DNA of 64,000 nucleotides from Cyanobacteriota bacterium (GTDB taxonomy: Bacteria; Cyanobacteriota; Vampirovibrionia; Vampirovibrionales; Vampirovibrionaceae): NCBI GenBank assembly GCA_019751815.1, contig JAIEMW010000004.1:725933-789932 (forward strand). The letters run 5' to 3'. The translations under genes and the position numbers were made by a program. This document shows positions 47,317 to 53,634 of the stretch, in pieces; position 1 is the first letter of the stretch; each line of letters opens with the position of its first letter. Under the pieces are notes generated by a model that was given only the letters and a program-made list of their open reading frames with translations, was not told where the DNA came from and ran no database searches.

Positions 47317-50238
47317 ATGACCGCTTCTCCTCAATCGACAAGCCCCCTCAACTACAAAGACACCCTCAATCTTCCTCAGACAGAGTTTAAAATGAAGGCC
47401 GGTGCTGCCACACGCGAGCCTGAAATTGAAACGTTCTGGGACGAGCAAGCCGTTTATCAACAGGCAATGGCTAATAATAGAAATAACCCTCGTTTTCTTT
47501 TGCACGACGGGCCGCCGTATCTCAGTTCTGACAAGATCCATATTGGTACGGCCCTTAACAAGATTTTAAAAGACATTGTGACTCGCTATAAAACACAACG
47601 AGGCTACTACTCACCCTATGTTCCTGGTTATGATGGACACGGACTCCCTATTGAAAATGCCGTGGTCAAGTCTATCAAAGGGGGACGGGATGCGGTTACT
47701 CCGGCAGAACTGCGCCATCAATGCCGAGAGTTCGCGCTGAAGAATTTAAAGGGCCAAGAAGCCAATTTTAAGCGTCTGGGTGTTTGGGGGCACTGGGAAA
47801 AACCCTATATCACCATTGATGGGACGTTTGAGGCCAGACAAATTGAGCTCTTTTGGACCATGTTCCAGGACGGTCATGTGTATAAGGGGCTGAAACCGGT
47901 TTACTGGTGTACCAGCTGCGAAACGGCCTTGGCTGATGCTGAAGTGGAGTACGGGGATCACACCAGTCCCAGTGTATACGTCGCGTTTACGCTCAACCCA
48001 GCCTCTCAGCATAAAGCCAGTGAGTTGTTTTCTCCTGGTGTAACGTTGCCTCCAATTGCCTTAGTTATCTGGACCACTACTCCTTGGACACTGCCGGCCA
48101 ATCTGGCACTGGCCGTCAATCCAGATCTGGAATATGTGCTGATTCAGCCCGAAGCGCAATCCAACTCTCAGCATTGCTTGGTGGTGGCAGCAGCGCTCTT
48201 GGAAGCCTTTGCCAGTGAAACCGGTCTGGCACGATTTAAAGAGTTGGGTCGTTGTCGCGGGGAACAACTGGCAGACTTGCGTGCCCAGCATCCTTTTATC
48301 GCAAGGGAATCTGTGGTCTTAACCGGGGATCATGTCACCACTGAAGCCGGTACCGGTGTGGTGCATACGGCACCCGGCCATGGGATGGAAGATTACCTCG
48401 TGTGCCAGGCTTACGACCGCGCCCATCCAGAAGCACCGCTTGGGATTTTGTCTCCATTAAACGCGAAAGGTGTGTTTACAGCCTCAGAAAATCTTGAATC
48501 CCGGCTGATAGGACAACCCCACTTCAAGGCTAACGCTGTGGTGATTGAGATTCTCCGCGAGAATCACGCCTTATTGGCCGAAAAATCCATTCAGCACAGT
48601 TATCCACACTGCTGGCGGTGTCATCATCCGGTGATTTACCGGGCAACAGACCAGTGGTTTATTGGAATTGAGCGGATTCGAGCAGAGGCGCTTTCTGCGA
48701 TTTCAGGTGTTGATTGGGTCCCTGCCCGAGGTGAAGCACGAATCACCAGTATGGTAGAGGGACGTGGAGACTGGTGTATCAGTCGTCAGCGAGTCTGGGG
48801 TGTGCCTATTCCCGTTTTTTACCGCCGAGATACCCGAGAAGTGGTGATCAATCAGGCAATTATCTCGCACCTGTCCGCACTGTTTGCAAAGTATACCTCG
48901 GATATCTGGTGGTCCTGGTCTCCAGAAAAACTATTGGAGGGCCTCCCAACAGCAGAAATTGGGACTGCACCTGAAAATCTTATTCCTGAGATGGACATTA
49001 TGGATGTTTGGTTTGACAGTGGGGTGACCCACACCGCCGTGGTGCAAGCCAGACGTGATGAGTTGGGAGAACTTCCAGTCGAACTGTATCTGGAAGGCTC
49101 CGATCAGCACCGCGGTTGGTTCCAATCCGCACTGTTAACCAGTGTGATGGTGAACGGAAAGGCGCCCTACAAAACGGTGGTGACTCATGGCTTTGTTCTG
49201 GATCAAGACGGCCGCAAGATGAGCAAAAGCCTGGGGAATTTTGTGGAACCCCAAAGTATTATTCAAGAATACGGGGCAGATGTTCTCCGCTTATGGGTGG
49301 CCAGTGTCGATTACGGCAATGATGTCCGGATTGGCAAGGCCATTATTGCCCAACTGGTAGAAGTTTATAAAAAAATCCGTAATACGGTGCGCTATTTGAT
49401 GGGGAATCTCTACGATTTTGACCCCAAAGCTGACAGTGTTGCCTACGAGGAGCTTACCCCACTGGATCAGTATATTCTTCACCGGTTTTCTGTGGTGATA
49501 GATACCCTCACAGAGGCGTTTGATGCCTATGAATTCTATCGATATTATCAAGTCCTGCAAAACTTCTGCGTGGTAGAGCTTTCGAGCCTCTACTTTGATG
49601 TGGCCAAGGATATTTTGTACACCCACAGGCGTGATAGCAAGACCCGTCGACAGGTTCAAACAGTACTTTATGTCCTGCTGAGTCACTTGGTACCACTGCT
49701 AGTGCCTGTAACTCCCCATTTGGCTGAGGATATCTGGCTGAATTTACCAGAAAAACACCGTTGGACAGAATTCACCAGTGCCATGTTGCTGCCGTGGCCA
49801 AAAATTCCTGATGCTTATCGAAATACACCACTGGCAGGGTCTATGGGCAAGCTTTTGGCCGTGAAGGAAGCCGTGAATGTTTCTCTGGAGGCTTTCCGCG
49901 TTCAGGATCAGGCGATTAAATCTTCTCTAGAGGCGGCTGTGGTGTTTGAGTCTTCTTTGCAGGACGAATTGCTCGGTAACGGGATGACCGAAAAGACGTT
50001 GGCACAATTGTTGATGGTCTCTTCTGTTGCTTGGGCGCCTGGTGTGTCAGAAACGGGTGCATCGCGTCCTGTGGTGGACGGGCACAACAGTCAAAAACCC
50101 TTGGGATGGGTGACTCAGGCCTCTGGCGGCAAGTGTGAGCGCTGTTGGAAATACACGGCAGAAGTGGGGACCGCCGAAGTGGAGACCTCGGATCAGCATC
50201 CCACGCTGTGTGCGGACTGTCATCACGCGGTTAATTAG
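47317..50238 (+). CDS. ileS: isoleucyl-tRNA synthetase
   Basis: 973-residue class I synthetase. The HIGH motif is in DGPPYLSSDKIHIGTALNKI, the editing domain has the VIWTTTPWTLPANLALAV and GTGVVHTAPGHGMEDY motifs, and the KMSKS loop is DGRKMSKSLGN. The C-terminal zinc finger has GKCERCWKYTAEVG and a CADC pair. Domain order and length match the bacterial type of IleS that carries the C-terminal zinc motif. No T-box-like leader was recognised in the 160 bases upstream. Confidence 0.97.
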   Translation: MTASPQSTSPLNYKDTLNLPQTEFKMKAGAATREPEIETFWDEQAVYQQAMANNRNNPRFLLHDGPPYLSSDKIHIGTALNKILKDIVTRYKTQRGYYSPYVPGYDGHGLPIENAVVKSIKGGRDAVTPAELRHQCREFALKNLKGQEANFKRLGVWGHWEKPYITIDGTFEARQIELFWTMFQDGHVYKGLKPVYWCTSCETALADAEVEYGDHTSPSVYVAFTLNPASQHKASELFSPGVTLPPIALVIWTTTPWTLPANLALAVNPDLEYVLIQPEAQSNSQHCLVVAAALLEAFASETGLARFKELGRCRGEQLADLRAQHPFIARESVVLTGDHVTTEAGTGVVHTAPGHGMEDYLVCQAYDRAHPEAPLGILSPLNAKGVFTASENLESRLIGQPHFKANAVVIEILRENHALLAEKSIQHSYPHCWRCHHPVIYRATDQWFIGIERIRAEALSAISGVDWVPARGEARITSMVEGRGDWCISRQRVWGVPIPVFYRRDTREVVINQAIISHLSALFAKYTSDIWWSWSPEKLLEGLPTAEIGTAPENLIPEMDIMDVWFDSGVTHTAVVQARRDELGELPVELYLEGSDQHRGWFQSALLTSVMVNGKAPYKTVVTHGFVLDQDGRKMSKSLGNFVEPQSIIQEYGADVLRLWVASVDYGNDVRIGKAIIAQLVEVYKKIRNTVRYLMGNLYDFDPKADSVAYEELTPLDQYILHRFSVVIDTLTEAFDAYEFYRYYQVLQNFCVVELSSLYFDVAKDILYTHRRDSKTRRQVQTVLYVLLSHLVPLLVPVTPHLAEDIWLNLPEKHRWTEFTSAMLLPWPKIPDAYRNTPLAGSMGKLLAVKEAVNVSLEAFRVQDQAIKSSLEAAVVFESSLQDELLGNGMTEKTLAQLLMVSSVAWAPGVSETGASRPVVDGHNSQKPLGWVTQASGGKCERCWKYTAEVGTAEVETSDQHPTLCADCHHAVN

Positions 50239-50287: not shown

Positions 50288-50320
50288 AGACATGTCTGCG
50301 GTAAAATGGCCCCACATGTG
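50288..50320 (+). promoter_or_regulatory. two ACATGT-centred palindromes upstream of the bufferin-like operon
   Basis: AGACATGTCT (50288-50297, perfect 10-bp palindrome) and CACATGTG (50313-50320, perfect 8-bp palindrome) have centres 24 bases apart. A possible -10, TAAAAT (50302-50307), lies between them. Paired palindromes around a promoter suggest an operator for a dimeric regulator. The regulator is not in the window. Confidence 0.35.
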
Positions 50321-50336
50321 TTGGTGAGACATTTAC

Positions 50337-50468
50337 ATGATTGATTCGGAACAGTTTGTTTTCTTCGGAGTCTATGCAACTGAACTGAATCAGATTGTAC
50401 TGGTCTTGACCGCCATGTCGGGGTGGTATCAATTGAGGCAGTCACCCTGTAAAACCCTTAATTATTAA
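50337..50468 (+). CDS. possible 43-residue leader ORF before the bufferin-like gene
   Basis: ATG at 50337 with GGTGAG 8 bases upstream. It starts MIDSEQFVFFGVYATELNQI, continues hydrophobic (VLVLTAMSGW) and ends at TAA 50468, 23 bases before the peptide gene. It has no clear signal peptide. It could be a real small peptide, a leader ORF or chance. The rest of the 253-bp gap holds the palindromes described at 50288. Confidence 0.3.
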   Translation: MIDSEQFVFFGVYATELNQIVLVLTAMSGWYQLRQSPCKTLNY

Positions 50469-50491
50469 TGAAATTGGAGAAATAAACTCTC

Positions 50492-50809
50492 ATGAAATAC
50501 ACCAAAATGTTATCTACTCTTGCTATCACTGTTGGTCTTTCTGCTGGTCTTCAAGCTGCTCAAGCCGCTTCTGTCGACAATGGTTTGTTCCAATTGTCCG
50601 AAGTGTCCAACAACGGTGCTTTGATTGCCGAAGGCAAAGATCATAAATGTGGTAAAGACCATAAATGTGGCAAAGAAAAAGGCCATAAATGTGGCAAAGA
50701 CCACAAATGTGGCAAAGAAAAAGGCGACCACAAATGTGGTAAAGACCACAAAGACGGTGCTGACAAATGTGGCGCCGACATGTGCGGTTCTGAAAAAAAA
50801 GCCAACTAA
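50492..50809 (+). CDS. bufA: bufferin/HvfA-like RiPP precursor with HKCG repeats
   Basis: 105 residues. A Sec signal peptide (1-26, MKYTKMLSTLAITVGLSAGL, cleavage near AQAA-S) is followed by a leader-like stretch FQLSEVSNNGALIAEGK that resembles the F-x-x-x-E-L-S-x-G-Y/A-x-x-A-E-G-K part of HvfA/bufferin precursors. The C-terminal half is a metal-ligand-rich core with seven Cys (53, 59, 67, 73, 82, 93, 98) and six His, mostly as HKCGK[D/E]. In known systems an MNIO enzyme with a DUF2063 partner converts the Cys of such repeats into metal-binding heterocycles; both partners follow immediately. A strong hairpin lies just after the stop. Likely periplasmic metal scavenger; the metal (copper is the usual ligand) is inferred. 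Confidence 0.8.
   Translation: MKYTKMLSTLAITVGLSAGLQAAQAASVDNGLFQLSEVSNNGALIAEGKDHKCGKDHKCGKEKGHKCGKDHKCGKEKGDHKCGKDHKDGADKCGADMCGSEKKAN
50642..50728 (+). repeat. tandem 42-bp repeat in the precursor core
   Basis: The 14-residue unit HKCGKDHKCGKEKG is encoded at 50642-50683 and again at 50684-50725, with an added Asp codon. A partial third unit starts at 50729. The copies differ only at silent positions, indicating recent tandem duplication of the core peptide. Confidence 0.92.
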
Positions 50810-50813
50810 TTAA

Positions 50814-50833
50814 AGCGGGAAGCAGTTCCCGCT
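50814..50833 (+). promoter_or_regulatory. intergenic hairpin between precursor and MNIO genes
   Basis: AGCGGGAA (50814-50821) pairs perfectly with TTCCCGCT (50826-50833) around a GCAG tetraloop, 5 bases after the precursor stop. No T-run follows, so it looks like a 3'-end stabiliser or partial terminator. It would make peptide mRNA more abundant than enzyme mRNA, as is common in RiPP operons. Confidence 0.7.
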
Positions 50834-50871
50834 GATTTAGTACTTGAGAAATAATAGGGCGTCTTTCGCAA

Positions 50872-51783
50872 ATGAAACCCAAGTCATCCCAACCAAAAGA
50901 GGATCTCCCTGGTTTTTCCAGAGCCCCTTCTTTGGTGGGTTGCCCCACACTGGGTGTCGGTTTCGGCTTAAGACGTCCTTTATTTCAAGAAACCATGGCG
51001 CACACTCAGCTGATAGACTGGTTAGAGATTACGCCAGAAAACTATATGGGCAAGGGAGGCAAAGCGCTTCGTCAGCTAGAAGAGGCGATGTCTCGTTTTC
51101 CCTTGGTCAGTCATGGGGTTAGCTTGTCTATAGGCAGTACAGATCCTTGGGACGAGCAGTATCTTTCTCAGCTAGAGAGATTATTTGAGCATGTAAATCC
51201 ACCGTGGTTTAGTGACCATCTGTGCTTTAGTGGCATTAACTGGAATTATTTCAACGATTTGATTCCCTTGTTGCGCACACCTGATGTGGTGAACCACGTT
51301 GTAGACCGTATTTGCTTTCTACAAGACCGCTTTCAGCGCCCAGTATTGATTGAAAACGCCTCTTTTTACCTGGAATACCCAGAAAATAAGCTCAGTGACA
51401 GCGAATTTCATGCCCAAATATTAGAAAAAGCCGATTGTGGGCTTTTGCTAGATGTGAATAATGTCTTTGTGAATAGTCAAAATCACGGCTTTGACCCCAT
51501 TGCTTACTTAAACGACCTGCCTTTGAACCGGGTGGTGCAAATCCATACGGCCGGGCATCACATATACCCCGAAGGTCGGATTGACACACACGGCAACCCT
51601 GTGTGCGCTGAAGTGTGGGATTTATTAGACTATACCCTGAGTGTCACCCGTCCCTGTGGGGTGATGCTAGAGCGGGATTTATATATCCCAGAATTTGATG
51701 AGCTCCGGCCAGAATTGGAGAAGATTCGCACTCTGTGGGAGAAGCATTACGCTACAGAACAAAAGGCTTTGGTGAGCCGATGA
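50872..51783 (+). CDS. bufB: DUF692 multinuclear non-heme iron oxidase (MNIO)
   Basis: 303-residue TIM-barrel enzyme of the MNIO family, which uses two or three iron ions and oxygen to modify Cys (or other residues) of peptide precursors. The metal-site motifs are all kept: SHGVSLSIGS near residue 80, FSDHLCFSG near 116, VLIENAS near 160, LLLDVNNVFVN near 194, VQIHTAGHH near 223, DTHGNPV near 238 and VMLERD near 264. An N-terminal ~25-residue extension precedes GVGFGLRRPLF, where most members begin. It lies 62 bases after the precursor and overlaps the partner gene as ATGA, so it should act on the peptide encoded at 50492. Confidence 0.93.
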   Translation: MKPKSSQPKEDLPGFSRAPSLVGCPTLGVGFGLRRPLFQETMAHTQLIDWLEITPENYMGKGGKALRQLEEAMSRFPLVSHGVSLSIGSTDPWDEQYLSQLERLFEHVNPPWFSDHLCFSGINWNYFNDLIPLLRTPDVVNHVVDRICFLQDRFQRPVLIENASFYLEYPENKLSDSEFHAQILEKADCGLLLDVNNVFVNSQNHGFDPIAYLNDLPLNRVVQIHTAGHHIYPEGRIDTHGNPVCAEVWDLLDYTLSVTRPCGVMLERDLYIPEFDELRPELEKIRTLWEKHYATEQKALVSR

Positions 51784-52778
51784 GCCCTGTAAAGACTGAA
51801 CAAATCCCTGTTTTGCCTTTGGAACAGCATCAACGCATTCTTGGCGAGCTGCTTTTAGAACGCGGTGGTGAGGATGTTTTAACCACAGAGACCAACTGGC
51901 AGGCCTATTGTCAGCGGCAATCTCCTGAGATTCAATCGATATTAACAGGCTATGACAGAGAGCGCTTAAAGCTCTACGAAGAGCTGATTCTCAACAGTGT
52001 CCAAGACACGATGGAGGGGATGTTTCCCTACACCCAAAAATTGTTGGGTTCGGCCTGGTTTGCCCTGGCGGAAAAATACCGTCGGGATTATCCCAACCCC
52101 TCCTTTCAGTTGTTTCGCGCAGTGGCTGAATTTCCTCGTTTTTTGCAGACCCCCGATCGCTTACCAGAGTCACTCAAGCCTATCTGGGAGCAATGCCCGT
52201 ATCTCAGTGAACTGGCTCGTTATGAGTGGCTGGAAGTGGATGTGTTAAACGCACCAGATCCGGTTGTTCCACTTCATACTGAGCCTGGTGTCCCCTCCAG
52301 TACCGAAAATTTTGGGGCCTGGGCACCGGTATGGAATCCCGTGATGCATTTTGCCCGTTTTAAATACCCTATTTTATCTATTATTGAACAGCTAGAGCTG
52401 GATACAGAGACATGTGATGAAAACGGACATGGGCTTGTTACTGCGTCAGGTATTAAAGCCGAAGATATCGATTATGAGACAAAGCAGCCGATTGAGGTCC
52501 TGATTTATCGAGACCCTGAGTCTGAACAGGCCCGGTTTTTTCAGCTCAATCCCATGACAGCAGCCCTTGTGGGTATTTGGCTAACCCCTAATGAAACACT
52601 AGAAAGCAAAGCTCTAGAAAAGTATCCCAGCTATCTCTCTGGGCTTCTTGCGTTGAAGCAGACTCACTTGCAGCTTGCCTCTATTCCTCAAGAAACACTG
52701 TTAACTGAAGCCCAACGGTTCTTTCAGCAGTGTATTCAAGAACACATTTTGGTCGGATCCCGTCCGGTGGGAGTGTGA
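51780..52778 (+). CDS. bufC: DUF2063 family RiPP partner protein (BufC/HvfC-like)
   Basis: 332 residues from ATG 51780, which overlaps the MNIO stop by four bases; translation is coupled. The N-terminal domain (about 30-130) has RLKLYEELILNSVQDTMEGM, FPYTQKLLGSAWFALAEKY and PSFQLFRAVAEFPRFLQ, the typical DUF2063 DNA-binding-like helical region. A C-terminal domain with NPVMHFARFKYPILSIIEQ and VLIYRDPESEQARFFQLNP follows, as in HvfC. Such proteins bind the precursor leader and present it to the MNIO. About 100 AT-rich bases without a recognisable feature separate it from the YceI gene. Confidence 0.88.
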   Translation: MSPVKTEQIPVLPLEQHQRILGELLLERGGEDVLTTETNWQAYCQRQSPEIQSILTGYDRERLKLYEELILNSVQDTMEGMFPYTQKLLGSAWFALAEKYRRDYPNPSFQLFRAVAEFPRFLQTPDRLPESLKPIWEQCPYLSELARYEWLEVDVLNAPDPVVPLHTEPGVPSSTENFGAWAPVWNPVMHFARFKYPILSIIEQLELDTETCDENGHGLVTASGIKAEDIDYETKQPIEVLIYRDPESEQARFFQLNPMTAALVGIWLTPNETLESKALEKYPSYLSGLLALKQTHLQLASIPQETLLTEAQRFFQQCIQEHILVGSRPVGV

Positions 52779-52882
52779 CCAGTCAATAGTTCTTTCAATT
52801 TTTCTTTCTTTTTAATTTTTCCTGGTGTTGTTTGTTGTTGTTCACTTAATTCGTTTAAATTTAAATAGGAGTCCATACTACT

Positions 52883-53563
52883 ATGCGTTTTCCCGTTTCT
52901 CAAAACTCACTTACCAAGGCCTTTGCCTTTTTCGGCTTTTTGGCTTTGCTCAATGCACAGCAGGCCAGTCAAGCTGCAGAGCGTTGCTACTATATTGACG
53001 ATCCCTCTAATCGGGATAACGTTACTTTTACCTCTGATGCGCCTGTGGAAGTGGTTAACGGGCATACCACTCAGATTAAAGGCAAAGTCTGCCTGGATTC
53101 TAGCTTTCAATTTGATGCCAAACACCCTTTCTCTGTTTCCTTTGATGTGGATCTCAACAGCATTGATACCGGGATTCCCCTGCGCAATCAGCATTTGAGA
53201 GAAAACTTTCTCCAAACAGACAAATTCCCCAAAGCCATCTTTAGAGCGACCAGTGTGAAATTGAGCAAAAAGCCTCCCTTCAAAGCTGGGGAAGTAGTCA
53301 CTGTGACGGCCAATGGTCAATTTACGGTTCACGGTAAAACACAACCCAAATCCATTGTGGTGAAGGTTACAAACTTGCCGGAATCTGAGTCTACTCGTCA
53401 CCGCTTTAGCTCAGGCGATTTGATCCGGGTGAAGGCCACTTTCCCAGTGGAGCTTCAAAAATACAACATCGAGCGACCCACTGCCCTGTTTTACAAGCTG
53501 GCCGATACGGTCTTTGTAACAGTGGATGCAATTGGCACTTCTGATAAGGACGCCTTGAAGTAA
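52883..53563 (+). CDS. secreted YceI-family lipocalin-like protein
   Basis: 226 residues with a signal peptide (about 1-32, AFAFFGFLALLNAQQASQA) and AGGAG about 12 bases before the ATG. The mature part fits the YceI beta-barrel: VTFTSDAPVEVVNGHTTQIK, FSVSFDVDLNSIDTGIPLRN, LRENFLQTDKFPKAIFRATS (the HLRs-DFLdxxkyPxxxFxs signature) and GQFTVHGKTQPKSIVVKV. YceI proteins bind isoprenoid-like or other hydrophobic ligands in the periplasm. Two Cys in the mature N-terminus could form a disulfide. It lies on the same strand 104 bases after the bufferin-like genes and before their first terminator, so it may be part of that operon. Confidence 0.88.
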   Translation: MRFPVSQNSLTKAFAFFGFLALLNAQQASQAAERCYYIDDPSNRDNVTFTSDAPVEVVNGHTTQIKGKVCLDSSFQFDAKHPFSVSFDVDLNSIDTGIPLRNQHLRENFLQTDKFPKAIFRATSVKLSKKPPFKAGEVVTVTANGQFTVHGKTQPKSIVVKVTNLPESESTRHRFSSGDLIRVKATFPVELQKYNIERPTALFYKLADTVFVTVDAIGTSDKDALK

Positions 53564-53580
53564 GCATTAATAAACACTCA

Positions 53581-53611
53581 AAAGCCCCGGTTAATTTTTA
53601 ACCGGGGCTTT
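53581..53611. terminator. bidirectional terminator-like hairpin between yceI-like gene and secG
   Basis: AAAGCCCCGGTTAA (53581-53594) pairs perfectly with TTAACCGGGGCTTT (53598-53611) around TTT. The 14-bp stem sits between two convergent genes. The T-run after it is short, so it relies on the strong stem with T residues in its own arm. Confidence 0.8.
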
Positions 53612-53634
53612 GTGATCTAGAAATAGAGTCCGAA

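Follow-up and report, generated by a model that had tools for sequence, protein, structure and literature searches.

A probable bufferin-type RiPP operon with a linked YceI-fold protein in the family of Vampirovibrio chlorellavorus

What kind of peptide system is encoded by a four-gene operon in the family of Vampirovibrio chlorellavorus (Cyanobacteriota), and does the secreted YceI-fold protein encoded at its end belong to that system? The operon lies on contig 2 of a 2.6-Mb genome, in a window of 64,000 nucleotides, by which we mean the whole stretch of DNA that was analyzed. Vampirovibrio is an alga-killing bacterium, that is, an algal predator. On the basis of gene identities, folds, conserved residues, a conserved gene block and the linkage of YceI to the precursor, all read from the sequences, we consider it probable that this is a bufferin/captophorin-type RiPP operon that yields a copper-buffering thiooxazole peptide and encodes a lipocalin-like partner for it in the periplasm.

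Gene order and conservation of the operon

The operon spans positions 50492–53563 of the window, in the order precursor, MNIO, DUF2063 and YceI. The upstream neighbor, ileS, ends at 50238, and the downstream neighbor, secG, is convergent with the YceI gene. The features are as follows:

50492..50809, + strand: RiPP precursor of 105 aa; signal peptide at about residues 1–25, leader LFQLSEVSNNGALIAEG, core with five HKCG, one DKCG and one DMCG
50814..50834, + strand: hairpin in the precursor–MNIO gap; intergenic fold of -17.0 kcal/mol
50872..51783, + strand: MNIO (MbnB/TglH/ChrH family; BufB/HvfB-like); PF05114, E=1.6e-93, 313 bits
51780..52778, + strand: DUF2063/PME1-type partner of 332 aa with a leader-binding RRE domain; PF09836, E=3.3e-10; HvfC model, E=1.5e-23
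52883..53563, + strand: secreted YceI-fold (lipocalin-like) protein of the precursor-linked subfamily; PF04264, E=2.9e-22
53579..53615, strand not assigned: intergenic hairpin, probably a bidirectional terminator common to the YceI gene and secG; -24.2 kcal/mol, z=-7.0

The four genes and the strong terminator, which had been proposed from the sequence alone, were all recovered at the places given for them (Pfam and NCBIfam profiles for the genes, a hairpin z score of -7 for the terminator). PF05114, PF09836 and PF04264 were all matched, and the precursor showed no DUF2282 match. The MNIO and DUF2063 genes overlap by ATGA. In the gap between the DUF2063 and YceI genes, which is 104 nt in the window and 25–56 nt in relatives, no terminator-like or sigma70-like site was found on the + strand of the window. 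An RNA family search of the operon region returned no match, and no copper gene was found in the operon. The hairpin within 53570–53620 is near-perfect. Hairpins were also present at the equivalent precursor–MNIO site of two relatives, G292 (-37.1 kcal/mol; L044, 4911–5017) and G294 (-23.7 kcal/mol; L048, 5335–5405), where both are followed by T runs and are terminator-like. The precursor–MNIO hairpins are possibly attenuators that keep the precursor in excess over the enzyme.

The relatives and phylum-sample records that we surveyed were Cyanobacteriota (Vampirovibrionales, Obscuribacterales and 'Melainabacteria'). Nine out of ten genomes of the window's family carry one MNIO, and in seven of these nine (the window, G292, G293, G296, G297, G299 and G300) the block of precursor, MNIO, DUF2063 and YceI is present in that order. 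A chance open reading frame was ruled out by conservation in the family. In G292 the block has a different genomic setting, following an obg-like gene, and the downstream flank of G293 differs. In G294 and G295, which belong to sister genera, a DoxX gene lies upstream of the precursor and YceI occurs nowhere in the genome. The window operon has no DoxX-like gene (HvfX), and its absence, already pointed out in the sequence-only reading, extends to the YceI-bearing lineage; DoxX itself does occur in these two sister genomes. We found no locus with both YceI and DoxX, with too few DoxX loci for mutual exclusion to reach significance. The DoxX genes of the sister genera, the precursor–MNIO hairpin and the conserved leader of the precursor had gone unmentioned in the sequence-only reading. 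In the tenth genome, G298 (L138, 7486–8599), the precursor, MNIO and DUF2063 genes are gone and YceI is kept between ileS and secG; YceI can accordingly be of use independently of these three genes.

A YceI subfamily found beside the peptide gene

The YceI domain of the window protein scored 80.1 bits against PF04264 (cut-off 23.7), and its structure model matched E. coli YceI best (1y0g, E=8.5e-12), and also BcnA and BcnB (5ixh and 5ixg). The first survey was an MNIO-based scan of genome contigs that was not selected for YceI and gave 80 loci. In these data, the YceI gene comes after DUF2063 in Vampirovibrionaceae and in Obscuribacterales/'Melainabacteria'; in Myxococcota it comes before the precursor. 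When the positions of all YceI and MNIO genes were compared in 39 of these genomes, 25 YceI genes proved to be no more than 5 kb from an MNIO; in each case the two genes shared a strand, and the Pfam score of the YceI was < 100 bits. None of the 65 canonical YceIs (>= 100 bits) in the same 39 genomes was that close to an MNIO. A profile built from the linked YceIs (A5) gave 232–320 bits for the linked proteins, a set that includes the profile's own rows, versus at most 104 bits for the others.

Later searches with this profile were not conditioned on MNIO and covered 292 Cyanobacteriota, 53 Obscuribacterales, 195 Myxococcota and 399 Pseudomonadota genomes. Among the Cyanobacteriota, only the window and one further genome, G096, exceeded 200 bits (next best, 146). 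In G096, an orphan EAKCGEGKCG precursor precedes YceI, at a distance of about 25 kb from the MNIO–DUF2063 pair. All YceI matches in Obscuribacterales (19/19) lie behind MNIO–DUF2063. The Myxococcota yielded 28 matches > 250 bits, of which 24 have an MNIO within 1.5 kb, three lie directly before an orphan precursor and one is at a contig end; all readable members are accordingly linked (27/27), with two of the three gene-order elements changed. No match to the subfamily was found at 1e-40 in Pseudomonadota, a phylum that offers no positive control of its own for a profile that does find the gene elsewhere. Altogether, 54 of the 55 subfamily members with readable surroundings adjoin an MNIO cluster or a precursor (7/8 in the family, 19/19, 27/27 and G096); these cases are not independent and come from three or four lineages, with two arrangements of the genes. 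In the three orphan cases of Myxococcota (L228, L232 and L235), the precursor is of the lipoprotein type (...SSCKGAESTCKG...KGAEGKCGEGSCGKK), and there is no MNIO in the following 1.5 kb. With G096, four YceIs thus adjoin an orphan precursor without an adjacent MNIO, which argues that YceI tracks the peptide.

By profile score, the window protein is a member of a distinct, precursor-linked YceI subfamily. In both of two trees the linked YceIs fell into one clade, with support of 84/87 (one unlinked long-branch row inside) and 65/33; this modest support led us to reject a claim of one well-supported clade, and the gap in profile scores is clearer. Mere synteny with ileS and secG was also ruled out, by the flanks of G292 and G293 and by the Obscuribacterales and Myxococcota.

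In a rather unlikely alternative, the RiPP part is as described and YceI is an independent envelope-stress lipocalin that shares only regulation with it, neither meeting the peptide nor mattering for it. The retention of ileS–YceI–secG in G298, the 104-nt gap to DUF2063 in the window and the isoprenoids that the fold normally binds (PMC9113575) would all suit such a protein. However, an independent lipocalin sits poorly with the adjacency seen in nearly every readable member in two gene orders, with the four YceIs beside orphan precursors and with the complete lack of linkage of canonical YceIs in the same genomes. The secreted YceI is therefore probably an overlooked part of the metal-peptide system, as judged from its gene's staying with the peptide gene in distant bacterial groups. 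What had been suggested as a possible accessory is now strongly supported by the 54/55 linkage in two gene orders. More tentatively, the subfamily might be dedicated to the mature, metal-binding form of the RiPP as its partner (a carrier, a membrane link or a redox partner), filling in Cyanobacteriota and Myxococcota the position that DoxX occupies in Pseudomonadota; we are somewhat inclined to doubt so specific a role, which would make it a lipocalin–RiPP metal-handling module not previously described.

The precursor and its putative modifying enzymes

The window precursor contains 7 Cys, 6 His and 19 Lys, and its signal peptide was judged by eye. The Cys residues are at positions 53, 59, 67, 73, 82, 93 and 98 (spacings of 6, 8, 6, 9, 11 and 5). 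A secreted His/Cys-rich peptide gene lies directly before the MNIO in all nine MNIO-bearing genomes of the family, the opposite of what the sequence-only reading had named as counter-evidence, namely homologous peptides mostly without an adjacent MNIO.

After the signal peptide, the precursor leaders in the YceI group share LF[QG]-x-[STN]-E-[VF], and at that place most of the proteobacterial EGKCG precursors (from the Solimonas aquatica order) carry F[QK]xx[DEQ][LI]. We built a leader profile from the signal-plus-leader regions of the proteobacterial EGKCG precursors only, with the core excluded. Of 892 ORFs, the seven best-scoring were precursors of the window's family and that of L070 (E 2.5e-4 to 0.13); the window precursor itself matched weakly (E=0.88, rank 10), yet it was the best ORF of its 64 kb. 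For single sequences, ungapped scoring of the leaders against shuffles gave only a weak signal, and this profile test took its place.

The repeated EGKCG motifs of the known precursors (two per 17-residue repeat) are absent from the window precursor, which has HKCG, DKCG and DMCG instead. Its core repeat, DHKCGK, thus departs from EGKCG and retains Lys-Cys-Gly. The different core repeat that had been noticed is real, but HKCG is not unique to this lineage; two proteobacterial precursors (L185 and L190) also have it, which makes it a variant and not a novel motif. In a published substrate scan of FonBC, D is accepted at position 1 and position 2 is permissive (PMC13097082), and DHKCG, in which K-C-G is kept, fits this tolerated pattern. 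The number of Cys differs widely among the family precursors, and the V. chlorellavorus precursor has 4 Cys and few KCG motifs, which indicates that the core and the dose vary.

Other forms of precursor were observed elsewhere. Three 'Melainabacteria' loci (L078, L079 and L080) have very short candidate precursors without a signal peptide before MNIO and DUF2063, such as MPIFQITEIFHDCKQKAKETNCGEETCGGDG (31 aa). Seven Obscuribacterales clusters (L062, L064, L066, L068, L069, L071 and L073) have two precursors each: a peptide with GKEGSCKGKE repeats immediately precedes the MNIO, and upstream of it lies another, secreted peptide (ACGKGSCGxDEKGA). In Phycisphaerae (L097 and L115), lipoprotein-type precursors with DKKCGG repeats precede the MNIO.

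The MNIO was closest to the NCBIfam models BufB (297.7 bits, cut-off 310) and HvfB (270.4 bits, cut-off 360), both scores being below the curated cut-offs, and its relative in the PDB is 3bww (E=2.9e-50). In HvfB, N175, D242 and H244 are needed for activity (PMC13419390). Their equivalents, mapped by motif, are N197, D238 and H240, which are invariant in the family, and the MNIO retains the iron-site residues. The DUF2063 protein matched PF09836 above the cut-off and did not reach the cut-off of HvfC (83.9 bits, cut-off 142). At E <= 0.001, its structure model (pLDDT 83) matched only TglHI (8hi7, E=1e-5, and 8hci) and NGO1945 (3dee, E=3e-4). In other Cyanobacteriota (L026, L027, L029 and L032), the gene before the MNIO encodes a larger Cys-containing protein of the membrane type, and the gene after it encodes a partner-like protein of 180–200 aa, which is possibly of the TIGR04222 kind. 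Some MNIOs lie in unusually long open frames (L028, 4480–6478, with a Buf2-like precursor before the gene; 600–860 aa in G306, G307, G313, G316 and G318), and these are perhaps fusions to the partner.

MNIOs catalyze several types of reaction. It is unlikely that this MNIO makes a modification other than 5-thiooxazole, or that its product has a role other than copper buffering, be it for a different metal (such as zinc or nickel) or for a different end (such as an oxidant sink). In favor of such a reading, the core is His-rich and unlike EGKCG, and both enzymes fall below the curated HvfB, BufB and HvfC cut-offs. Nevertheless, both the closest models and the closest solved structure point to a BufB/HvfB-like enzyme paired with PME1, the K-C-G context is retained, and the characterized PME1-dependent cases install thiooxazoles (PMC13097082). 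That the peptide is an unmodified metallothionein-like protein, its neighboring MNIO acting elsewhere or decaying, is highly improbable: a His/Lys/Cys core could bind metal alone and the Cys number varies widely, but the precursor directly precedes the MNIO in 9/9 genomes, the leaders appear related to proteobacterial ones (by profile, with the window precursor itself at E=0.88) and the enzyme residues are intact. For the MNIO–DUF2063 RiPP system of the bufferin/Hvf type in a non-proteobacterial lineage, as initially proposed, the profile, fold, leader and neighborhood tests agree.

Proposed mechanism and comparison with known systems

In the thiooxazole copper-buffering reading, the precursor would be made in the cytoplasm, where the DUF2063 partner would bind the leader (LFQLSEVSNNG...) and activate the MNIO. 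The MNIO would then oxidize six Cys in K-C-G motifs, and perhaps a seventh in M-C-G, yielding 5-thiooxazoles, after which the Sec signal would export the peptide to the periplasm. There, the thiooxazole thiolates, aided by His, could bind excess Cu(I) or another soft metal. YceI would be exported separately and act with the finished peptide, either by carrying an isoprenoid, such as a quinone, which would quench lipid peroxidation driven by the metal, or by binding the peptide directly. A quinone-loaded lipocalin beside a copper-binding peptide is plausible because copper promotes lipid peroxidation. Proteins of the YceI fold often contain a bound isoprenoid, for example ubiquinone-8, and BcnA, for which such a role has been proposed, protects against lipid peroxyl radicals (PMC9113575). 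Leader binding, thiooxazole formation, Sec export and periplasmic metal sequestration are here modeled on HvfABC, the bufferins and FonABC (PMC12452194, PMC13097082, PMC13419390); from these relatives we infer the modification and the metal, and we likewise infer the role of YceI.

The MNIO–DUF2063 RiPP class is already known; the novelty lies in this lineage and its variant cores and, most of all, in a YceI partner that recurs. The main texts of two published MNIO landscape surveys make no mention of YceI, Cyanobacteria or Myxococcota, although their supplements may list such loci, and our literature search found no paper joining MNIO/DUF692 or bufferins with YceI. The range of copper-linked RiPPs would thereby come to include forms with other core repeats in Myxococcota and in non-photosynthetic Cyanobacteriota, among them the family to which an algal predator belongs. 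The YceI protein, soluble and with a known fold, accompanies the peptide gene in two phyla, also at loci lacking an adjacent MNIO, and so opens the periplasmic step to experiment.

Among known systems, the Buf_EGKCG/oxazolin group (HvfABC(X) of Haemophilus influenzae, fontiphorin FonABC and gonophorin; PMC12452194, PMC13097082, PMC13419390) has the same gene order, with a Sec-secreted Cys-repeat precursor, an MNIO and a DUF2063/RRE partner, and shares the Lys-Cys-Gly core sites and apparently the F-Q-x-x-[DE]-[LVI] leader after the signal. The window operon differs from this group in its DHKCGK core with irregular Cys spacing, compared with EGKCG pairs in 17-residue repeats, in lacking DoxX, in its added YceI gene and in its occurrence in Cyanobacteriota rather than Pseudomonadota. 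It resembles the bufferins Buf1 (DUF2282) and Buf2 in its A-B-C gene order and in an MNIO nearest the BufB model; however, its precursor has neither the DUF2282 match of Buf1 nor the CxGxNxCKG-type layout of Buf2, which was found in L139–L141. The BcnA/BcnB–LcoA peroxidation-defence system of Burkholderia (PMC9113575) also has a secreted YceI-fold protein, to which the fold matches 5ixh and 5ixg correspond. Unlike that system, the window operon has no cytochrome b561 gene noted in it, and its YceI belongs to a distinct subfamily linked to a RiPP precursor.
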